A stretch of 64,000 bases of DNA from Lachnospiraceae bacterium AC2028 (GTDB lineage Bacteria; Bacillota; Clostridia; Lachnospirales; Lachnospiraceae): NCBI GenBank assembly GCA_000702685.1, contig JNJD01000007.1, forward strand, positions 310,001 to 374,000. The letters are read 5' to 3'. Positions 13,785 through 63,866 of this stretch are shown in pieces (position 1 is the stretch's first letter; every line of letters starts with the position of its first letter). Position numbers and translations under genes: made by a program. Below the pieces are notes generated by a model. That model was given only the letters and a program-made list of their open reading frames with translations, ran no database searches and was not told the DNA's origin.

Positions 13785-13846
13785 TTTATTGCGGTATTTG
13801 CACATTTTTTAGCATTGTGATAGTATCTTTGCCGTAACTTTATACG

Positions 13847-13852
13847 TATAAT
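13847..13852 (+). promoter_or_regulatory. -10 box ahead of the cobalamin riboswitch
   Basis: A consensus TATAAT on the plus strand ends about 5 bp before the aptamer begins. No convincing -35 box at 17 bp. The start would fall at the first base or so of the aptamer. Confidence 0.4.
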
Positions 13853-13856
13853 TCTG

Positions 13857-14048
13857 CAGGTGCCCTTATCCGGGCCGGATCTTCAAGATACGGATAGGGG
13901 AGAATAGGGAAGCGGGTGAGATTCCCGCACGAACGCGTCGCCGTGACGGTTTTGACTGTTCCATGCTCATCCCGGCAGATGAGCCCATTGCATTTATGTG
14001 AGAAGGCCGGAAACAGCCGTCGAAAACCCCAGCCGAAAGACCTGCCCG
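13857..14048 (+). ncRNA. Cobalamin riboswitch aptamer
   Basis: The segment has the core of the cobalamin aptamer: GGGAAGCGGGTGAGATTCCC (13906 region), followed by a GC-rich helix, a variable arm, and the terminal AGCCGAAAGACCTGCC (14031-14046), close to the consensus B12-box end AGYCAGGAGACCTGCC. The long leader continues through two small hairpins to an intrinsic terminator at 14139-14169, which gives a transcriptional OFF switch: when cobalamin binds, terminator formation should cut expression of the DUF4430 and ECF S genes downstream. The GCCACTG block of the B12 box is degenerate here, so subclass is uncertain. Confidence 0.88.
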
Positions 14049-14138
14049 CAGAATATTTTCGAAAACCCCGCGTAATGGGTCAAGGAAACCCGTAAGTGCA
14101 CTATGCCAAGGCATATGTGCCTGTTTTGGTTTGCTTTT

Positions 14139-52803: not shown

Positions 52804-53892
52804 TCATTTATCCATCAGCTTGAGGAATTCATCAAACAGATACGACGCATCATGAGGACCGGGGCAGCTTTCGGGATGGTACTGCACACTGAAGATCCTG
52901 TCTTCCGCGCACCTTACTCCCTCAACCGTTCCGTCGAGAAGATTCTTATGGGTTACGACTAGTCCGGTTCCTCCGAGTGTGTTCTCATCAACCGCATATG
53001 AATGGTTCTGGCTGGTGATATCGGTTCTTCCGGTTTCCAGATTCTTGACCGGATGATTTCCGCCTCTGTGTCCGAACTTTAACTTATATGTCTTTGCACC
53101 GCATGCCAGCGAGATTATCTGATGTCCGAGGCATATTCCGAATATGGGATATTTTCCTCTGAGCTGCTTTACAAGCTCTATTGCTTCCTTAACATCCTCG
53201 GGGTCTCCGGGGCCGTTCGAAAGGAATATTCCGTCCGGCTTTATCGCAGCAACATCCTCTGCCTTTACATTCCAGGGGAATACCGTAACGGAGCATCCCT
53301 TTTTAAGGAAGGAACGGAGAATGTTCTCCTTCATTCCGAAATCTATGGCAGCGATGTGATATTTTGCATCGGTGGAAATATAGTTTTCTTTTAACGGTCT
53401 GCTTACTCTCGATACCGCATCGGGCTTGAGGACAGTTTCTTCTATTATCTTAAGACCTTCTTCAACGGTTGTGTTCTCGTTCGTGATCAGGGCCTTTCTT
53501 GTTCCGACATCCCTTATCTTGCGGACGATCTCTCTTGTGTCAACTCCGGTGATTCCGGGAATTCCGAGCTCCTTGAGTGTTTCGGAGAAGGACTTGCCGC
53601 TTCTGAAATTGGAAGGCTCGTCATTGTAATCTCTTACGACAAAACCTCCGATAGTGGGATGTGCGGTCTCATTATCGTCATCGTTGATGCCGTAATTACC
53701 TATAAGAGGATAAGCCATCGTGACAAACTGATCGGTATAGGAAGGATCGGACATGATCTCCTGATATCCTACGGGTGAAGTGTTGAACACGAGCTCGCAT
53801 ACTCTGTCTTTTTCATCCTCACCGAAGCCGTAGCCGACATATTCGCTGCCGTCCGACATTATCAGTTTTCTTTTCTTTCCTCTGTAGATCAT
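52804..53892 (-). CDS. carA: Carbamoyl-phosphate synthase small subunit (glutaminase)
   Basis: Hydrolyses glutamine and channels ammonia to CarB. The 362 residues have the CarA N-terminal domain (GSEYVGYGFG, NTSPVGYQEIMSDPSY, GITGVDTREIVR) and a class I glutamine amidotransferase domain with the nucleophile Cys in IFGICLGHQIIS and the His-Glu in QYHPESCPGPHD. The ATG shares one base with the purF stop codon, so translation is coupled. Confidence 0.97.
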   Translation of the reverse strand: MIYRGKKRKLIMSDGSEYVGYGFGEDEKDRVCELVFNTSPVGYQEIMSDPSYTDQFVTMAYPLIGNYGINDDDNETAHPTIGGFVVRDYNDEPSNFRSGKSFSETLKELGIPGITGVDTREIVRKIRDVGTRKALITNENTTVEEGLKIIEETVLKPDAVSRVSRPLKENYISTDAKYHIAAIDFGMKENILRSFLKKGCSVTVFPWNVKAEDVAAIKPDGIFLSNGPGDPEDVKEAIELVKQLRGKYPIFGICLGHQIISLACGAKTYKLKFGHRGGNHPVKNLETGRTDITSQNHSYAVDENTLGGTGLVVTHKNLLDGTVEGVRCAEDRIFSVQYHPESCPGPHDASYLFDEFLKLMDK

Positions 53893-55319
53893 TACCTGGC
53901 CTCCGAAAGTTTTTTCTCGAATCTGTCCTTCCTCGGATCTGTGGGTATCTTAGTCGGGTAATCCCCGTCAAAGCATGCGCTGCAATAATCCGCGCATCCG
54001 CTCATCTCCCCGAGACTCTCAAGCGGAAGGAATCCTATCGAATCCGCACCGGTAAGAGATGCTATCTCTTCGGGCGTATGGTGGTTGGCTATAAGCTTGT
54101 CTTCCGAATCAATATCCACTCCGTAGAAGCACGGATGTCTGAAGGGCGGCGAGGATATGCGCAGATGTATCTCCTTAGCTCCCGCTTCCCTCAGGATATT
54201 GATGATCCTCTTGCTCGTGGTGCCCCTTACGATCGAATCGTCTATGAGAACCACTCTTTTTCCTTCAAGGACACTCTTTACGGGACTTAACTTGATCCTG
54301 ACGGTATCGGTCCTCTGGTCCTGGGAAGGTGCGATGAAGCTTCTGCCGACGTATTTATTCTTAACGAGTCCGATCTCGTACGGTATTCCGCTTTCTCTTG
54401 AATAGCCTATTGCGGCATCAAGTCCCGAATCCGGAACACCTACGACCACGTCTGCTTCCACGGGATATTCCCTGGCAAGGATCTGCCCTGCCCTTACCCT
54501 CGTGTCATGCACCGCTATACAATCTATCACAGAATCGGGTCTTGCAAAATAGATATATTCAAAAATACATGGACTTTTTTTCGAAGCGGGCTCTCCCATA
54601 TAAGAAACCGGATCTGCGCTTGGAGTTTCCGACTGGAAAACCAGCATCTCCCCGGGCTTTACATCCCTTATGAATTCCGCTCCCACTGCGGTCAGGGCAC
54701 AGCTTTCGGATGCAACGACGAAGCTGCCGTCCTCTCTTTTTCCAAAGCAAAGCGGCCGGAATCCGTGAGGATCCCGAACCGCGAGCAATTTGGTCGAAGA
54801 CATCATGACAAGGCTGTATGCGCCTTCAAGATATTTGACAGCGGAAAGTACCGCCGATTCTATGCTGTCTGTCTTAAGTCTTTCCCTGGTGATCATATAG
54901 CATATGGTCTCGGTATCGCTTGTCGAATGGAAAATAGCACCCGAAAGCTCGAGAGAATCGCGAAGATCGAGGGAATTGGCAAGATTTCCGTTATGGGCAA
55001 GGGCAAGATTACCCTTCTGGTGGCTGACTACCATGGGCTGGATATTGCTCCTGGTATTTCCTCCGGTCGTACCGTATCTGACATGCCCGATAGCCATACA
55101 TCCGCCGGGAAGCGCATTCAGCTGTGTTTCGTCAAATACTTCTCCGACAAGTCCGAGGTCCTTGTGTGCCGAAAAGACGCCGTCATCATTCACAACGATT
55201 CCGCAGCTTTCCTGGCCCCTGTGCTGGAGAGCATAAAGCCCGTGATATACATCCCTGGCAATATCATCCCTGCGACCGCCGATTATTCCGAATACTCCGC
55301 ACTCTTCATGAATTGCCAT
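53892..55319 (-). CDS. purF: Amidophosphoribosyltransferase
   Basis: First step of purine synthesis: PRPP plus glutamine to phosphoribosylamine. The 475 residues have an N-terminal Ntn domain; Cys7 in EECGVFGI would be exposed by removal of a short propeptide. The PRPP loop is [14 protein letters not shown]. Four cysteines at the positions of the Bacillus-type 4Fe-4S cluster are visible ([24 protein letters not shown], and ADYCSACF), so oxygen-sensitive control is likely. It overlaps pyrG by 14 bp and is fused to carA by a shared base. Confidence 0.96.
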
Positions 55320-56913
55320 TGTGTCTGCATACCTCCCTGATGAATCCTTTGAAAAGAGGGTGAGCCTTGTCGGGCCTTGATTTAAATTCGGGATGATACT
55401 GTACTCCCAGATAAAAGCCGGCTTCCGGAAGTTCCATCTCCTCTACGAGACGATCGTCGGGTGAAGTTCCGGCAAATACCGCTCCGGTTTCTTCAAACTT
55501 CTCCCTGAAATCATTGTTGAATTCATATCTGTGACGGTGACGCTCCGAGATCTCGTCCTTACCGTAGAACTCCCGGAGCTTGCTTCCCTGCTTTATCTTA
55601 CAGGGGTAAGCTCCGAGTCTGAGCGTTCCTCCCTTGTCTATCGTATCGCTCTGTCCGGGCATGAAGTCGATGACCTTATGAGCACAGAGCTCGTCGAATT
55701 CTCCGGAATTGGCATCGGCTATACCGAGAACATTTCTCGCAAATTCAATGCACGCTATCTGCATTCCGAGACATATTCCGAAATAGGGAAGTCCGTGGGT
55801 TCTTGCATACTTTGCGGAGGTGATCATTCCCTCGATGCCTCTGTCTCCAAATCCGCCGGGAACGATTATTCCGTCGATATCTCTGAACGTATCTTCAACA
55901 TTTTCTTCGGTTATCTTCTCGGAATCGATCCATTTTATCTGAACCTTCGCTTCGTTCTCATATCCCGCATGCTTGAGGGCTTCCGCAACGGACAGATATG
56001 CATCATGAAGCTGCACATATTTTCCGACAAGTCCGACAGTTACGGTCTTCTTCAGATTCTCGATACGGCTTACCATCTCTCTCCAGTGACCCAGATCCGG
56101 TTCGCCGGCTTCGATCCCGAGTTCACGGCAGACTATTTTGGAAAAACCGGAATCTTCGAGCATGAGCGGAGCTTCATATAATATAGGAAGAGTTATGTTC
56201 TCGATGACACAGTCTTCTTTAACGTTGCAGAAATGTGCGATCTTTTTGAATATCTCATCTTCAAGCGGTTCATCGCATCTGAGGATCAGGATGCCCGGAT
56301 TGATCCCCATTCCCTGAAGCTCCTTGACGGAATGCTGTGTGGGCTTGGATTTGTGTTCGTCCGATCCGTGGAGGAAGGGTACCAGCGTAACGTGGATGAA
56401 AAGGCTGTTCTCTCTTCCGACTTCGAGCGAGATCTGTCTTACGGCTTCTATGAAAGGCTGCGATTCGATATCACCGACGGTTCCTCCGATCTCGGTAATG
56501 ACAACATCGGCATTTGTTTTCTTACCTACGCGGTAGACAAAATCCTTGATCTCGTCGGTAATGTGGGGAATGATCTGTACGGTGGATCCGAGATATTCAC
56601 CCCTTCTCTCACGGTTCAGAACATTCCAGTAAACTCTTCCGGAAGTCAGGTTTGAATATTTATTGAGATCCTCATCGATGAATCTCTCATAATGTCCGAG
56701 ATCGAGATCGGTCTCCGCACCGTCATCGGTAACATAGACCTCACCGTGCTGATAAGGGCTCATGGTACCGGGATCTACATTAATATATGGATCGAGTTTC
56801 TGAGCGGCAACCTTAAGGCCTCTTGCCTTGAGAAGCCTTCCAAGTGAAGCTGCCGTTATTCCTTTTCCGAGACCGGACACAACACCGCCCGTGACGAAGA
56901 TATATTTTGTCAT
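55306..56913 (-). CDS. pyrG: CTP synthase
   Basis: Converts UTP to CTP using glutamine and ATP. The 535 residues comprise the synthetase domain ([60 protein letters not shown]) and a glutamine amidotransferase domain (Cys in [14 protein letters not shown], His-Glu in [12 protein letters not shown]). Standard length. Its tail overlaps purF, and it lies 11 bp after asnB. Confidence 0.98.
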
Positions 56914-56924
56914 GATTACCGCCT

Positions 56925-58511
56925 TTACTTACCGCTTGCACCGTAGTTGGAAAGCACTCTTGCACTGGGATCGTTTACATTGCAGCCTTCCCATTCCTTG
57001 TTGGGCATCCAGAAATCCTTTACCATATGGGACTGGCCGGGATAGTATTCTTCGAAAATCTCCCTGTAGAGAAGTGACTCCTTGGTGAAGGGTCTTGAGT
57101 GATCGTACTTCTTACAGCGCTCTTTGAATTCCTCTTCGGTATATTTTGCTTCCGCATATTCCTTGAGGTGATCGACCATTGAATGTCCTACCGCATCGGA
57201 GAATGCAGCCTTCTCACGCATAAGGATCTCATCGGGAAGATAATCAAGTCCCTCGAACGCATGACGGAGAAGATACTTACCCTTGTTGTAACGGTTCATC
57301 TTCATCTCGGGATCTATCTCCATGCAGTACTTGACGAAATCGAGATCGCCGAAGGGAACTCTTGCTTCGAGTGAGTTTACGGAAATGCATCTGTCGGCAC
57401 GAAGGACATCATACATATGAAGCTCCGATACTCTCTTCTCGGCTTCCTTCTGGAAAGCCTCGGCATCGGGTGCGAAATCGGTATATTTATATCCGAAGAT
57501 CTCGTCCGAAACCTCACCGGTCAAAATGACACGGATGTCGGTCTGCTCATGAATGGCCTTGCAGAGAAGATACATTCCCATGCTGGCTCTTATGGTTGTG
57601 ATGTCGTATGTTCCGAGAAGATGAATGACATCAGGCAGAGCGTTTATGACATCATCTCTGGTGATTATGACTTCGGTATGATCGGCTCCGAGATAATCTG
57701 CGGTCTGCTTCGCATATTTAAGATCGATCGCATCCTCGTTCATGCCGATCGCAAATGTCCTGATGGGCTTATCGCTCTTTCTCTGTGCAATGCTGCAGAC
57801 AAGCGATGAATCAAGTCCTCCGGAAAGAAGGAATCCTACCTTGGCATCCGCGATAAGTCTCTTCTCGACTGCGGTAATAAGTTTTTCTCTTATGTTCGTG
57901 CAAACGGTCTCAAGATCGTCCTTGCATACCTTGGAAGGCTTTGCGATATCGTTGAAGCAGATGAATTTTCCGTCCTTGTAGTAATGCCCGGGAGGGAATG
58001 GATGGATCTTGTCATCCGATACCTCGACCAGGTTCTTGGGCTCACTCGCGAAGATCACGCTGCCGCCCTTATCGAATGTATAGTAAAGAGGTCTGATGCC
58101 GATCGGATCTCTTGCTGCGATCCACTCATCGTTCTTGCCGTCGTAGATGACGCATGCGAATTCGGCATCGAGTTTCTTGAACATTTCGGTTCCGTATTCT
58201 TCATACATAGGAAGAAGAATTTCACAGTCGCTGTCGCTCTTAAAGGTATATCCCTTTGCCTTCAGTTCATCCCTGAGCGGAGCGAAGCCGTATATCTCGC
58301 CGTTACAGACCACGGCATTATTATTAAGTTCAAAAGGCTGCATCCCTTCGGGGGTGAGCCCCATGATAGATAAACGTCTGAATCCCATCAGACCGCCCTT
58401 TGTTTTTAATACACGTGCATCATCGGGCCCTCTTGACGTTGTCTTGTCCAGAGCCTTTGCAAACGCTCTGTCATCAGCGCCCCTTCCGCACCATGCCATG
58501 ATCGAACACAT
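56925..58511 (-). CDS. asnB: Asparagine synthetase B, glutamine-hydrolysing
   Basis: Makes asparagine from aspartate with ATP and glutamine. The 528 residues start MCSIMAWCG, with Cys2 as the Ntn nucleophile; FRRLSIMG and VVCNGEIY belong to the glutaminase domain, and the ATP-binding PP-loop is [23 protein letters not shown] and [14 protein letters not shown] are found in the short AsnB type. GGAGGATG precedes the ATG. First gene of asnB-pyrG-purF-carA-carB, separated from glnN by a terminator. Confidence 0.96.
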
Positions 58512-58614: not shown

Positions 58615-60717
58615 TCATCTTACGGAAAACAGCATGTCTCCGTATGAAGGATAAGGCCACTCTTTCGAAGATACGAGTGTTTCTGCCTCATCAACAGCCG
58701 CTCTGAGTTCTCCCATCTTAGGAAGAAGCTCATCTCTTATTGCTGCGCTCTCTGCGATGATGTCAGACGCATCGGCAAGTGAGATGATCGCTTTCTCGAC
58801 TGCTCCGGTTCTTTCGTAGATCTGGTCGGCGAGGACGGAAAGTCTGGAGATGACCGTGGTCTCATAAGAGCATGCAAGAGATCCGGCAACTGCCTTCTTG
58901 GAGGCTACGGTCTCGGAAAGCTTATCCGCATAAGCGGTAACTGCGGGAAGGATCTGCCTGAGTGCCATATCGATCATGGTGTTGGCCTCAATGCGTACCT
59001 GCTTGCAGTAGTTCTCGAGCATGATCTCACATCTGGATTCGATCTCTTTTTCGGTGAATACACCGTGACCGGTAAGAAGCTTGACATTCTTGTCATCAAG
59101 GATGTGAGGCATGCAGTCGGGAGTGGTTCTGTAGTTGCACAGTCCCCTGACTTCGGTTGCTTCCTTGACCCATGCATCGTCGTAACCGTTTCCGTTGAAG
59201 AGGATCCTCTTGTGATCCTTGATGGTCTTCCTGATCATCTCGTGAAGGGTCTTCTCGAAGTCCTCAGCTCCCTCAAGTCTGTCTGCATAGATCTTGAGTG
59301 ACTCGGCAACTACGGTGTTGAGCATGATGTTTGCACATGCGATAGAGTTGGATGAGCCGAGGCTTCTGAACTCGAACTTGTTGCCGGTGAATGCGAAGGG
59401 TGAAGTTCTGTTACGGTCGGTGTTGTCTCTCGGGAATGCGGGAAGGACATCAACTCCGAGCTTCATGATCTTCTGCTCTGTGCCGCTGTAGGGCTTATCC
59501 TGCTCGATAGCATCGAGAATTGCGGAGAGCTCATCGCCGAGGAATACGGAAATGATCGCGGGAGGTGCCTCGTTAGCTCCGAGTCTGTGGTCGTTACCCG
59601 CAGTGGCAACGGAGAGTCTGAGAAGATCCTGATAATCATCAACCGCCTTGATGACCGCACAGAGGAAAAGGAGGAACTGTGCGTTCTCATAAGGTGTATC
59701 GCCGGGAGAAAGAAGGTTGATACCGGTATCGGTAGCCATTGACCAGTTGTTGTGCTTACCGCTTCCGTTTACGCCTGCGAAGGGCTTCTCATGGAGCAGG
59801 CATACAAGTCCGTGCTTTGATGCGACCTTCTGCATGATCTCCATCATGAGCTGGTTCTGGTCTGTCGCGATATTGGTGGTCGAGTAGATGGGGGCGAGCT
59901 CGTGCTGAGCTGGTGCAACCTCATTGTGCTCGGTCTTTGCAAGGATTCCGAGTTTCCAGAGTTCCTCGTTGAGGTCGTTCATGAATGCCTGTACTCTGGG
60001 CTTGATGACTCCGAAGTAGTGATCGTCCATTTCCTGGCCCTTGGGAGGTCTTGAACCGTAAAGGGTTCTTCCGGTGAACTTCAGGTCGGGACGCTGATCG
60101 TACATTTCCTTGGTAATAAGGAAGTATTCCTGCTCGGGTCCGACGGAAGTCTTGACGTTCTTGGCAGTGGTGTTTCCGAAGAGACGAAGGATACGGAGAG
60201 CCTGCTTGTTGAGCGCCTCCATGGAACGAAGGAGGGGAGTCTTCTTATCGAGTGCTTCTCCGCCGTATGAGCAGAATGCAGTGGGAATGCAGAGGGTCTT
60301 ATCCTTGATGAATGCATATGAGGTAGGATCCCATGCCGTATATCCTCTTGCTTCGAATGTAGCTCTGAGTCCTCCCGAAGGGAAGGAAGATGCATCGGGC
60401 TCACCCTGGATGAGCTCTTTGCCTGAGAATTCCATTATGACACTTCCGTCAGGTGAAGGTGAGATGAATGAGTCGTGTTTTTCAGCGGTAATTCCGGTAA
60501 GAGGCTGGAACCAGTGAGTGTAATGAGTCGCACCCTTTTCGAGCGCCCACTCCTTCATTGCCTGTGCAACCGATTCCGCTACCTTGGGATCGAGTTTCTT
60601 GCCTTCATCGATGGTCTTTCTGAGTGATGCGTATACTTTGGACGAAAGTCTTGATCTCATCTGACGATCGTCAAAAACCTGTGATCCAAAAAGTTCCGGT
60701 ACTGAATGTGTTTCCAT
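58615..60717 (-). CDS. glnN: Glutamine synthetase type III
   Basis: Ammonia assimilation into glutamine. The 700 residues are the size of the GS-III class, much longer than GS-I. Signatures: [70 protein letters not shown], and [21 protein letters not shown]. The ATG at 60717 follows AAGGAGG; the open frame runs 29 codons further upstream but into a terminator-like leader hairpin and is not used. Own promoter, leader hairpin and terminator. Second glutamine synthetase besides glnA 1.8 kb away. Confidence 0.96.
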
Positions 60718-60744
60718 AGTAGATTCCTCCTTAAATTTTGGAAA

Positions 60745-60794
60745 CAAAAAAGACAAAAGCGCCTTTTTTGTATGTTTACAAAAAAGACGCCTTT
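60745..60794 (-). promoter_or_regulatory. Terminator-like leader hairpin of glnN (attenuator candidate)
   Basis: On the minus strand AAAGGCGTCTTTTTTGTA folds back on TACAAAAAAGGCGCTTT (one bulge, one G-U) and is followed by TTTGTCTTTTTTG. It begins about 9 nt after the predicted transcript start and ends about 30 nt ahead of the ATG. The glnA leader has the same design. Confidence 0.7.
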
Positions 60795-60809
60795 GCCTTT
60801 TCATCTGTT

Positions 60810-60838
60810 AAGATACTACCGTAAATTTCAGTTGTCAA
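60810..60838 (-). promoter_or_regulatory. Sigma-A promoter of glnN
   Basis: Minus strand TTGACA (60838-60833), 17-bp spacer, TATCTT (60815-60810). Predicted start near 60803. Confidence 0.7.
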
Positions 60839-60888
60839 GAAATAATACGGATATTTTTTTAATTGTTTTTATCCCGTAAAAAGACGGA

Positions 60889-61785
60889 TCAATTATCCGA
60901 ACTGAATTCAAAGACTACGGACTGATGCGAAGGATCATTATGATCTCCCCAGCAGATTCCGCCGTCTACAAAGTAGAAATTAACCGAACCGTCATCATAT
61001 ACCAGATACTGGTTCTCCTGCTCGGGATCAATCATTTCGCACTCCCACATCTCACCGTCATCGCAGAAAAGAAATTCGGAATCATCATCAAAGTATGTGT
61101 AATATTCCCAAATATATCCTATATTGTCAACTATCATGCTCTGGATATGTACATGGTAACTGCCGTCTCCTTCATCAGTTATCTGCATCCAGTAACTGCC
61201 GTCGTCGACTCCCCATATTCCGAGGAAGTAATAAGGCGAAACATCTCCTCTGCCTTCGCCGACGGGCTCGGAAACAGCTGAATCGTTGCGTACAAAGTGA
61301 AGTGCACCGTCCTGGCCCGAGTAAATATCGGTGGGATTCATATCATCAAGATCTGCGGCAAACGATTCCCAGATATCACCGTTCTCATCATAGAAAGTAT
61401 ACCAGTATGAAGCGGTTCCGTCGGGATGATCTTCGGTTGTGATCTCAATCCTTCCGCTTACGGAGCCGAGAAGAGACATGTCTTCAAGATCATAATTATA
61501 TGTGTGACCGTTACAGTAGATGTTGAGATAAGTGGGATCCATTCCGGCATCCGCGTCTGTCCATTCTCCTATGAGACCGCTGAGAAGCTCCTGAACCTCA
61601 TATTCGGATATAACCGGCTGATCATAGTCTTCATCGTATCCGGTTAAATCGTCCTCGTCGTAATCATCTTCGATGTCATCAATTCCGGTATCCGGTCCGT
61701 CTGCGGCAGGTTCGCTTCCGCAGCCCGCAAGCAATGCGCCGCTTAAAGCGCATGCACAGATCATCATTAACAATTTCTTTTTCAT
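60889..61785 (-). CDS. Acidic lipoprotein of unknown function
   Basis: The 298 residues start with MKKKLLMMICACAL and the lipobox LLAGCGS (Cys about 21), so it is lipidated and surface-exposed. A highly acidic stretch (DDIEDDYDEDDLTGYDEDYDQ form, residues 32-55) leads to a domain of repeated beta strands rich in Tyr, Asp and Trp (SYWYTFYDENGDIWES, FLGIWGVDDGSYWMQI, IGYIWEYYTYFDD). I do not recognise the family. I chose the ATG at 61785 with GGGAGGA upstream, not the frame start 18 codons earlier. It lies between glnN and the ANTAR gene, behind a 13-bp inverted repeat. Confidence 0.75.
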   Translation of the reverse strand: MKKKLLMMICACALSGALLAGCGSEPAADGPDTGIDDIEDDYDEDDLTGYDEDYDQPVISEYEVQELLSGLIGEWTDADAGMDPTYLNIYCNGHTYNYDLEDMSLLGSVSGRIEITTEDHPDGTASYWYTFYDENGDIWESFAADLDDMNPTDIYSGQDGALHFVRNDSAVSEPVGEGRGDVSPYYFLGIWGVDDGSYWMQITDEGDGSYHVHIQSMIVDNIGYIWEYYTYFDDDSEFLFCDDGEMWECEMIDPEQENQYLVYDDGSVNFYFVDGGICWGDHNDPSHQSVVFEFSSDN

Positions 61786-61816
61786 AAATATTCCTCCCAA
61801 AAGAAACTCGGCAATA

Positions 61817-61860
61817 GAGCCGGTAAACACTTTTGACATTCTAACACTGTTTACCGGCTC
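61817..61860. promoter_or_regulatory. Perfect 13-bp inverted repeat ahead of the lipoprotein gene
   Basis: GAGCCGGTAAACA - 18 bp - TGTTTACCGGCTC. No T-run follows on the minus strand, so it is not an ordinary terminator; a dyad operator or an mRNA structure is possible. Confidence 0.55.
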
Positions 61861-61909
61861 ATAATATATACTTTTAGGATAGTCTTTATGAAATTATCGT
61901 AGCAGTCCG

Positions 61910-62494
61910 TCATCCGTAGGTTTTCAGGATGTTTTCCGCGGTTTCCTTCTTGCTCAGACACAGATCCATTGCCTGCTTCTGGATATATCTGTGGGCATTT
62001 TCCTCCGTCATATGACAGCTCTTTATGAGTGCCCATTTAGCCCTGTTGACGAGTCTTATCTCTTCCATCTTCTCTTCAAGCGAAACGGTCTTTTTCTTGA
62101 TGCGTCTGAGCCTCTCCCTGATGCTGCACATGACTCCGAGCATCTCATCGAGGCGGTTTACTTCCAGAGGCTTTTTAATTACCATGACACCCCTGGGTGT
62201 GAGTGAAGAGCTGATCTCATCAAACATATCGCTTCTTACCATGATGAGGCAGACCCTTTCACTGTCGGTACAGACATCTATCGCGAATTTTCTTCCGAAG
62301 TCATCGGGAAGAGGCGCGTTGATGAATACAAGGTCGAAGTCTTCATCGACCATTCTCCTCTGTGCCTTGGCAATGCTGTCCACAACGACTACCGGATCGT
62401 ATTTTCCTCCGGACAGTTCCTGTCTCAGCGCATTATTTATTTTTTCCGATGCCGATACCAGCAGCACGCTGTAAACATGTTCAGCAGGTGTCAT
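61910..62494 (-). CDS. ANTAR-domain response regulator (antiterminator)
   Basis: RNA-binding regulator that relieves transcription termination. The 194 residues have an N-terminal receiver-like domain (YSVLLVSASEKINNALRQ, LVFINAPLPDDFG, VIKKPLEVN) in which the acidic phospho-site is weak: the expected Asp region reads DLVFINAPLPD, with Asn at or near the acceptor position. A coiled linker (110-140) leads to the ANTAR domain (142-194) with RAKWALIKSCHMTEENAHRYI and MDLCLSKKETAENIL. Its ATG directly follows the glnA stop, so it is cotranscribed with glnA. The likely targets are leaders of nitrogen genes, in particular those of glnA and glnN. Confidence 0.88.
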   Translation of the reverse strand: MTPAEHVYSVLLVSASEKINNALRQELSGGKYDPVVVVDSIAKAQRRMVDEDFDLVFINAPLPDDFGRKFAIDVCTDSERVCLIMVRSDMFDEISSSLTPRGVMVIKKPLEVNRLDEMLGVMCSIRERLRRIKKKTVSLEEKMEEIRLVNRAKWALIKSCHMTEENAHRYIQKQAMDLCLSKKETAENILKTYG

Positions 62495-63712
62495 TTATTT
62501 CTCTGCTCTCTTAAGATATGAAGATAAGATCTCTTCGGGCACATACTTCTTGATGAATTCGCTTGTCTGTGCAAGTTCTGCCGCATCCTTGAGGGATGAA
62601 GGAAGCTTGGCAAGTGATGAATTCTTTTCACCGTCAGCGTACAGATTCGTCTCGATGGCTGTGGGAGGAACAAGTCCGTTCTCAAGTCCCTCGAGTCCCG
62701 CATAAATGAGAAGTCCGAATGCAAGATAGGGATTGGCTGAAGGATCGGGAGATCTGAGCTCAGCTCTCACATACTCGCCGGAAGCTGCGGGAATCCTGAT
62801 GAGTGCGGAACGGTTCTCCTTGGCCCATGAAATATACTCGGGTGCCTTGGATGAACCGAGTCTGTTGTATGAACCCTTGCTCGGATTAAGGAACAGTGTC
62901 ATGTCAGCAACATACTTAAGTATGCCGGCAACAACGGGTTCAAAGGATACGTTCTCTTTTCCCTTTGCTACGGAGAAATTGATATGCATTCCGTTACCGG
63001 CTTTTCCCTCAACGGGCTTGGGTGAAAAGTCAGCAGTTGCACCGTTTCTGTTGGAGATCGCGCTTACAACGCTCCTGAAGGTCATCGCATCATCAGCGGA
63101 CTTGAGCGCATCGCAGTATCTGAAATCGATCTCATTCTGCCCGGGACCTTCTTCATGATGCGAGCTTTCGGCAAGTATTCCCATCTGCTCGAGAGTTATG
63201 CAGATCTCTCTTCTGATATTCTCGCATCTGTCAGTTGGGCCGATGTCCATATATCCCGCATCATCATAAGGGATTCCGGTATTTACGCCTTCCATGTCAT
63301 TTCTGAACAGATAGAATTCGGACTCTGTTCCGAAACGGAAGGAATAGCCCTTCTTTGCCGCAGCATCCACGGCATTTCTGAGGAAGGTCCTCGCATCGCA
63401 TGCAAAAGGAGTTCCGTCGGGCCATGTGATATTGCAGTACATCCTGACAACCCTTCCGTGCTCGGGTCTCCAGGGAAGTACGGCAAGCGTCGACGGATCG
63501 GGATGAAGGAACAGATCCGATTTGGCATCTATATCAAATCCTTCCACCGACCACGCATCGATGGCGATTCCCTCGCTGAACGCCCTGTCCAGTTCCGTAG
63601 GCATTATCGAAACATTCTTATGTCTTCCGAATACGTCGCAGAATGCAAGACGGATGAACTTAACGTCCTCTTCTTCAACGAACATTTTTACTTCCTGATC
63701 TGTGTAATTCAT
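62495..63712 (-). CDS. glnA: Glutamine synthetase type I
   Basis: The 405 residues are somewhat short for GS-I (about 440). Signatures: FIRLAFCDVFGRHKNVSI, DLFLHPDPSTLAVLPW, FRFGTESEFYLF (metal Glu), GPGQNEIDFRY, GNGMHINFSV (His of the glutamate site), YNRLGSSKAPEYISW, NRSALIRIP and RSPDPSANPYLAF. I chose the ATG at 63712 with GGGAGGTAAT upstream; the open frame 16 codons further out runs toward the leader hairpin. It has a strong promoter, a terminator-like leader and an ANTAR regulator gene immediately behind. No adenylylation site can be assigned with confidence. Confidence 0.94.
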   Translation of the reverse strand: MNYTDQEVKMFVEEEDVKFIRLAFCDVFGRHKNVSIMPTELDRAFSEGIAIDAWSVEGFDIDAKSDLFLHPDPSTLAVLPWRPEHGRVVRMYCNITWPDGTPFACDARTFLRNAVDAAAKKGYSFRFGTESEFYLFRNDMEGVNTGIPYDDAGYMDIGPTDRCENIRREICITLEQMGILAESSHHEEGPGQNEIDFRYCDALKSADDAMTFRSVVSAISNRNGATADFSPKPVEGKAGNGMHINFSVAKGKENVSFEPVVAGILKYVADMTLFLNPSKGSYNRLGSSKAPEYISWAKENRSALIRIPAASGEYVRAELRSPDPSANPYLAFGLLIYAGLEGLENGLVPPTAIETNLYADGEKNSSLAKLPSSLKDAAELAQTSEFIKKYVPEEILSSYLKRAEK

Positions 63713-63737
63713 ATTACCTCCCGGTATACCTGTTAAG

Positions 63738-63788
63738 AAAAAAAGCGCCCATTTCACCAAAGACCGTTGTCTTTATGAAATGAACGCC
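63738..63788 (-). promoter_or_regulatory. Terminator-like leader hairpin of glnA (attenuator candidate)
   Basis: On the minus strand GGCGTTCATTTCA pairs with TGAAATGGGCGCT (G-U tolerated) enclosing AAAGAC-AACG-GTCTTT, followed by T7. It begins about 11 nt after the predicted transcript start and lies 26 nt ahead of the ATG. Confidence 0.75.
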
Positions 63789-63805
63789 ATTGCTCATATG
63801 CATCA

Positions 63806-63835
63806 TTTATACAGCAAACAGCGCTTGTATGTCAA
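63806..63835 (-). promoter_or_regulatory. Sigma-A promoter of glnA
   Basis: Minus strand TTGACA (63835-63830), 18-bp spacer, TATAAA (63811-63806); predicted start near 63799. Confidence 0.75.
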
Positions 63836-63836
63836 G

Positions 63837-63866
63837 AAAAAACATGGGGACGGATGACCGTCCCCA
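63837..63866 (-). terminator. Terminator of gltD
   Basis: On the minus strand GGGGACGG - TCAT - CCGTCCCC, then ATG and T6, ending one base before the glnA -35 box. Confidence 0.85.

Follow-up and report, generated by a model that had tools for sequence, protein, structure and literature searches.

How might two glutamine synthetase genes be controlled by hairpins lying directly behind their promoters, and what could the RNA-binding ANTAR antiterminator encoded behind one of them recognise there? The glnA and glnN leaders of Lachnospiraceae bacterium AC2028 raise this question. They lie on the minus strand of the 64,000-nucleotide (nt) stretch analysed here (contig JNJD01000007.1, positions 310,001 to 374,000; hereafter the window). 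The original prediction proposed that the ANTAR protein controls both synthetases but did not see the canonical two-hairpin A1/G4 hexaloop target. We found one A1/G4 hexaloop in each leader, placed inside the 5' foot of the terminator. We put a probability of about 0.82 on the reading that the leaders are ANTAR-controlled transcription attenuators working with one hexaloop instead of two; the protein encoded beside glnA very probably holds that hexaloop open. The features concerned are as follows, with positions counted from the first letter of the window.

63806-63835, minus strand: glnA promoter read from the sequence, TTGACA at 63830-63835, an 18 nt spacer and TATAAA at 63806-63811
63780-63797, minus strand: predicted, P2-like hexaloop antiterminator of glnA, AUGAGC[AAUGGC]GUUCAU, with A1 and G4
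63738-63788, minus strand: intrinsic terminator of glnA, its 5' foot made of hexaloop loop bases 4-6 and the hexaloop 3' arm
62495-63712, minus strand: glnA, type I glutamine synthetase, ATG at 63712 (PF00120, PF03951)
61910-62494, minus strand: ANTAR protein gene, with degenerate receiver, long helix and ANTAR domain (PF03861)
60810-60838, minus strand: glnN promoter read from the sequence, TTGACA at 60833-60838, a 17 nt spacer and TATCTT at 60810-60815
60782-60801, minus strand: predicted hexaloop antiterminator of glnN, AAAAGGC[AAAGGC]GUCUUUU, with A1 and G4
60746-60791, minus strand: intrinsic terminator of glnN, overlapping the glnN hexaloop
58615-60720, minus strand: glnN, type III glutamine synthetase, ATG at 60720 (PF12437, PF18318)

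Leader layout and alternative folds

Both synthetase genes carry a TTGACA promoter followed by a U-tailed hairpin, as had been described, the hairpin beginning about 8 nt after the -10 box. The gap from this box to the hexaloop stem is 8 nt in glnA (stem from 63797) and in glnN (from 60801), and the terminator ends 25 nt before the start codon in each leader. The promoter arrangement at glnA is common to relatives L003-L005 and L007-L009. The hexaloop stem measures 6 base pairs (bp) in glnA (loop AAUGGC) and 7-8 bp in glnN (loop AAAGGC), against a threshold of at least 3 bp. The A1/G4 hexaloop is described as the recognition element of ANTAR proteins (PMC3369931, PMC3369936).

The terminator starts within the loop of the hexaloop, at or beside G4. 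The common stem ends noted earlier, 5' GGCG and 3' GGCGCTTTT, are present in both leaders, and since the terminator begins inside the hexaloop loop, the GGCG is made up of loop bases 4-6 and the closing G. These bases belong to both folds and the hexaloop and terminator therefore exclude each other. Folds of the glnA and glnN leaders lie 4.7 and 7.2 standard deviations below those of dinucleotide shuffles, with 0 of 200 shuffles as good in each case. We refolded the two leaders, together with the gltB leader of the same genome, with the hexaloop held. The energy went from -25.4 to -12.4 kcal/mol for glnA, from -33.4 to -13.3 for glnN and from -30.9 to -13.4 for gltB, and shorter hairpins formed in place of any full-length terminator in these three leaders. 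A descriptor comprising an A1/G4 hexaloop, a stem of at least 4 bp and an overlapping hairpin with a U-tract matched exactly the glnA and glnN leaders in the 64 kb window, and matched twice in total across 10 Markov-generated windows. Scanned against Rfam with gathering thresholds, the window gave no match at either leader.

Further elements were located beyond the window end in the same genome, where gltD and gltB are found together with an amtB whose protein carries a fused C-terminal PII domain (PF00543). The gltB leader contains one element, AGAGGC[AACGGC]GUCUCU with its terminator, which directly follows a TTGACA/TATTTT promoter. The amtB leader (L063, C7:381966-382111) is a double attenuator, with two hexaloop-terminators in series. 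A 12-base core pattern gave 3 matches in this genome (glnN, gltB and a site in a long open frame) versus 27 for the reversed control, from which no more follows than that the pattern is infrequent; the glnA and amtB elements do not fit it. The match inside the long open frame has a 1 bp stem and was rejected as chance or an unrelated terminator.

Two smaller features adjoin these leaders. A probable gltD terminator (63846-63865) lies just upstream of the glnA promoter, and a lipoprotein-like frame without a Pfam match (60889-61785) lies between the ANTAR gene and glnN. In relative L006 the glnN leader comes closely after the ANTAR gene, unlike the arrangement in the window.

One hairpin or two

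The absence of an A1/G4 target was thus not borne out. What holds of the related claim, that there is no two-hairpin target and hardly room for one, is that the second hairpin (P1) is missing and has no room behind the promoter: neither leader has another such hairpin a short linker upstream of the terminator-overlapping hexaloop (P2).

We scanned named genomes with a pattern of TTGACA, CAANGGCGTY 26-48 nt later and a CGYYTTTT end, which favours promoter-near elements, limits their distance to the -35 box and is uninformative on the share of dual ones. The scan returned at least 125 matches on at least 118 stretches. Among the matches listed, 116 of 125 have a hexaloop stem of at least 4 bp; shuffled 5' flanks gave such a stem in 9% (first 84 matches, 78 of them stemmed). 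The other 9 were set aside as chance or unrelated terminators. In 99 of the 116 stemmed elements listed, no more than 14 nt separate the -10 box from the stem. Upstream A1/G4 hexaloops showed no clear excess (7 of 78 elements, against 5.6 +/- 2.6 shuffled). Among 80 record titles listed, 73 are Bacillota, nearly all Clostridia. Stems are absent in four of the 7 non-Bacillota titles among these matches (L132, L156, L195, L204) and present in three (L151, L190, L197). These three place a promoter-near hexaloop-terminator in distant phyla, namely Omnitrophota (L151, L197) and Planctomycetaceae (L190), by possible transfer or convergence.

A second set of 29 loci, not selected by promoter, came from matches in the order to R1, a covariance model built from the leader set. 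Good promoters lie within 14 nt of P2 in 16 of the 29. In L108 and L109 a genuine A1/G4 P1 is found no more than 25 nt from P2; promoters of the remaining loci are weak, distant or misjudged. In L100 and L125 the promoter classifier put the loop in the wrong place, and for L114 it picked a promoter far away, so that their upstream 'hexaloops' are not evidence of P1, although their rows stay in the 29. Promoter-abutting single loci and true-P1 loci both occur in this set, and therefore both architectures exist in one order.

These data bear on the best surviving alternative, namely that the window leaders are ordinary dual-hexaloop targets in which a different promoter transcribes a P1 situated further upstream. 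L108 and L109 speak for it, as do L105 and L124, in which longer leaders with P1-like hairpins of off-consensus loop were seen by eye. The 8 nt left between the -10 box and P2 in both window leaders argues against it, as do the short gaps in the named genomes (within the distance limit of the pattern) and the chance level of upstream hexaloops. Moreover, sequence ahead of the promoter differs by eye between the window clade and L007-L009, whilst promoter and element are kept. We regard the dual-hexaloop explanation as unlikely.

Covariation, gene set and link with ANTAR genes

Covariation was examined in 21 leaders from glnA, glnN, gltB and amtB, which are related to each other, so that comparisons with shuffles are not probabilities. 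In the hexaloop stem 96.8% of cells are paired, with 30 double changes (78.6% and 10.2 in shuffles); sliding the partner gave at most 59.5% paired and 6 double changes. The terminator stem has 96.2% of cells paired and 22 double changes (85.7% and 7.7 in shuffles). The six columns of the hexaloop 3' arm also pair in the terminator, and therefore covary with both partners.

A slightly less probable alternative than the dual-hexaloop one is that these are plain intrinsic terminators or 5' stabilising stems, with the hexaloop a by-product and some other factor acting, if any. The terminators are indeed strong and U-tailed and the hexaloops alone weak. However, the hexaloop 5' arm lies mostly outside the terminator, yet complements the 3' arm in the 116 stemmed matches and covaries, and the element tracks ANTAR and nitrogen genes. 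In glnN and a few other leaders the 5' arm can also lengthen the terminator, and those cases count less against this explanation. The inverted repeat might instead serve a nitrogen repressor as its DNA operator, as its position just downstream of the promoter could suggest, but this is very improbable given that stem sequences differ widely between genes whilst pairing and loop are kept, and that a U-tract follows.

The single-hexaloop reading is also supported by the genes that follow the element. Among the matches listed, 64 of 116 elements precede glnN (25), gltB or its amidotransferase part (14), amtB (13) or glnA (12). The frame downstream of each of the other 52 was inspected by eye, and 20 of the frames were also compared with family libraries, so that part of the 52 were identified. 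The frames were CTP synthase (L131), NADP glutamate dehydrogenase (L136, L151 from Omnitrophota and L190 from Planctomycetaceae), aspartate-ammonia ligase (L139), the carbamoyl phosphate synthase small subunit (L228), glmS (L174), asparagine synthase (L201), amidotransferase domains (L161, L154), an aminotransferase (L202), an alanine symporter (L185), an ABC ATPase (L166), a family 3 solute-binding protein (L170), a PucR regulator (L183), an RraA-like frame (L153) and a glucosamine isomerase-like frame (L197). NAD synthase (L165) and NirB (L238) are cut frames scoring below the family cut-offs, and the L137 frame had no family match in the library scan. Most scanned frames fit nitrogen or glutamine metabolism, the RraA-like frame and L137 being less clear. 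Within the window, asnB, pyrG and a purF-like gene follow glnN (53892-58511); the element precedes such gene kinds in L201, L131 and L161.

In the genus, R1 matches 17 of 31 genomes and a simple pattern matches 20; the pattern match is stemless in two, G021 and G024 (20 of 23 matches read). L265 and L266, among 20 loci read, have no hexaloop stem and were discarded as chance or unrelated terminators. ANTAR genes are present in 28 of the 31. By R1 the element seemed strictly tied to the glnA-linked ANTAR type (assigned at a protein score of at least 90 bits), with all 17 among the 18 typed genomes. We rejected this tie: the pattern, with a hexaloop stem of at least 4 bp, also finds the element in 7 of the 13 genomes lacking that type, so R1 under-counts and there is no one-to-one link. 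The element precedes the near type of glnN in 15 of 16 genus loci with the glnA-linked type, and more distant glnN copies among the loci read are without it. In several genus members (L251, L252, L259, L261, L262) it lies ahead of a gene whose frame contains ..AFDR/P..SGIPE.D.A.DNIRLGDNVVWRVSD.

The covariance search of the leaders against relatives, which had been suggested as a check, gave R1 matches (E <= 0.01) in 64 of 295 genomes sampled from the order; among those matched, G000, G041 and G054 had supplied training sequences. ANTAR genes occur in 61 of the 64 genomes with the element versus 141 of 231 without (Fisher p = 8e-9, kinship ignored). Of the R1 matches listed, 58 are in genomes with a listed ANTAR place and could be checked, and 33 of these, spread over 29 genomes, have it no more than 10 kb away. 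Taken together, the sequences show two hairpins that exclude each other and covary, no space for P1 behind this promoter, the gene set and the link with ANTAR genes. Of the original proposal, the promoter-proximal attenuators on both synthetases, linked with ANTAR and nitrogen genes, are supported; the missing target that went with that proposal is what has fallen away.

The ANTAR protein and the proposed mechanism

The ANTAR assignment of the gene behind glnA held up, its PF03861 domain scoring 54 bits (cut-off 27.3), and this is the sole ANTAR match in its own genome. Its ATG follows the glnA stop directly, without a gap, suggesting that the two genes are co-transcribed. The receiver domain scores 26.5 bits, below the 30.2 cut-off, and lacks a phosphorylatable Asp: where the D-x-x-x-P-x-x-x-G stretch of Rv1626 and EutV has its Asp, the window protein has Asn59. 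In 15 aligned proteins this position holds 11 Asn, 2 Asp (L245, L220), 1 Gln and 1 Tyr. The predicted fold (mean predicted local distance difference test score, pLDDT, 88.7; predicted TM-score, pTM, 0.70) finds EutV first by E-value, and the highest query TM-score among the 50 rows listed, 0.76, is to RNA-bound EutV. Three of the RNA contacts of EutV (PMC8934654; residue numbers matched to the alignment by us), K149, E160 and M172, are kept, and are invariant in the 15 proteins as K153, E164 and M176.

We propose the following scheme, in which the transcript start, binding, antitermination, direction of control and signal are what we infer. The expected start of RNA polymerase lies a few nt ahead of the hexaloop stem, probably 1-2, which would make the A1/G4 hairpin the first structure that the transcript can form. 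Without the protein, loop bases 4-6 and the 3' arm would re-pair downstream into the much stronger terminator and transcription would stop. Active ANTAR protein would capture the hexaloop before the terminator 3' arm is made, depriving the terminator of the foot beside its U-tract, so that read-through reaches glnA-ANTAR, glnN, gltBD and amtB. With the ANTAR gene behind glnA, control would be self-reinforcing. Read-through presumably takes place in nitrogen shortage, a direction and signal suggested by the target genes; since the receiver has no phospho-acceptor, the signal is probably relayed not by a kinase but by a partner, as happens with AmiR. According to the published model for EutV, the protein is recruited first by the P1 hairpin (PMC8934654). 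Here P1 has no room, and either capture near the promoter would be fast enough or the protein would reach the polymerase otherwise.

Several observations weigh against this reading. Both hexaloops are reported as needed for EutV antitermination (PMC8934654, PMC3369936), and six EutV contacts are changed in the window protein (Y164H, R142I, R168Q, N173D, R175C, R177S). The isolated hexaloop hairpins of glnA, glnN and gltB are weak (-4.8, -6.2 and -7.2 kcal/mol) and not unusually stable, with 24, 14 and 10 of 200 shuffles as good; such weakness is expected if a protein must hold them and is no evidence by itself. Two of five covariation measures for the hexaloop stem do not exceed shuffles: pair types number 8 against 9.3, and double-change pairs 4 against 2.5, a value reached in 61 of 500. 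The element precedes glnA in 9 of 15 genus loci read with the glnA-linked type and is missing ahead of glnA in six genus loci, L010-L015. Four of those genomes (L010, L011, L012, L014) keep it at glnN (L041, L039, L042 and L040 respectively) and at gltB (L247, L256, L255 and L264 respectively). Lastly, leader or element was found with no ANTAR gene in G007 and G013 of the 31 genus genomes searched and in G055, G101 and G225 of the order sample. Listed completeness of the element genomes without an ANTAR gene is 72-99%, and missing contigs account for some of them at most.

An ANTAR gene next to glnA is familiar from Clostridium saccharobutylicum (NitR/GlnR). We know of no leader target of this kind for such clostridial glnA-linked ANTAR genes. 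A close parallel is EutV with the eut leaders of Enterococcus faecalis, which share the A1/G4 hexaloop (P2) overlapping the terminator foot and a receiver-coil-ANTAR protein matching the predicted fold. The differences are that here there is no P1, the element begins at the expected transcript start, the receiver is without phospho-Asp and the targets are nitrogen assimilation genes. AmiR of Pseudomonas aeruginosa is likewise a pseudo-receiver ANTAR protein (PMC8934654), and both it and the window protein have His aligned at the place of EutV Tyr164; the amiE leader, in contrast, has two hairpins (PMC3369936). Ramesh et al. 2012 described ANTAR regulons with attenuators on glutamate/glutamine synthase genes, ammonium transporters and other nitrogen genes, predicted there with a dual-hairpin model (PMC3369931); dual stem-loops are also how a survey presents ANTAR targets (PMC8164766). 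In the 2022 paper on the structure of EutV with RNA, one hexaloop is given as the minimal ANTAR site, yet two are argued to be needed for antitermination. That paper also notes a lone hexaloop in EutX as well as sites in Mycobacterium that depart from the pattern, and says that the role of single hexaloops needs further work (PMC8934654). We found no report of a natural single-hexaloop antiterminator in the available portions of the open-access literature searched. ANTAR antitermination on nitrogen genes is already known (PMC3369931), and we regard the promoter-abutting, single-hexaloop form as a novel variation on it.

It seems likely, though less firmly so than the reading of the two window leaders, that one hexaloop suffices for a widespread class of ANTAR antiterminators in which the hairpin sits at the extreme 5' end of the RNA. 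This promoter-abutting switch would govern a nitrogen regulon in many Clostridia, Lachnospiraceae and Oscillospiraceae among them, and would have outliers in Omnitrophota and Planctomycetes. If true, a P2 that forms right beside the promoter would do without the P1 'recruitment' hairpin. The leaders resemble single-hexaloop attenuators of natural origin, and because they are numerous and show compensatory changes, the role of a lone hexaloop can be tested on them directly. They further suggest a way in which ammonium assimilation may be controlled in many gut and rumen Clostridia, and a reason why such leaders would escape searches demanding two hairpins.

Elsewhere in the window, Rfam places a cobalamin riboswitch at 13841-14063 (73.6 bits).

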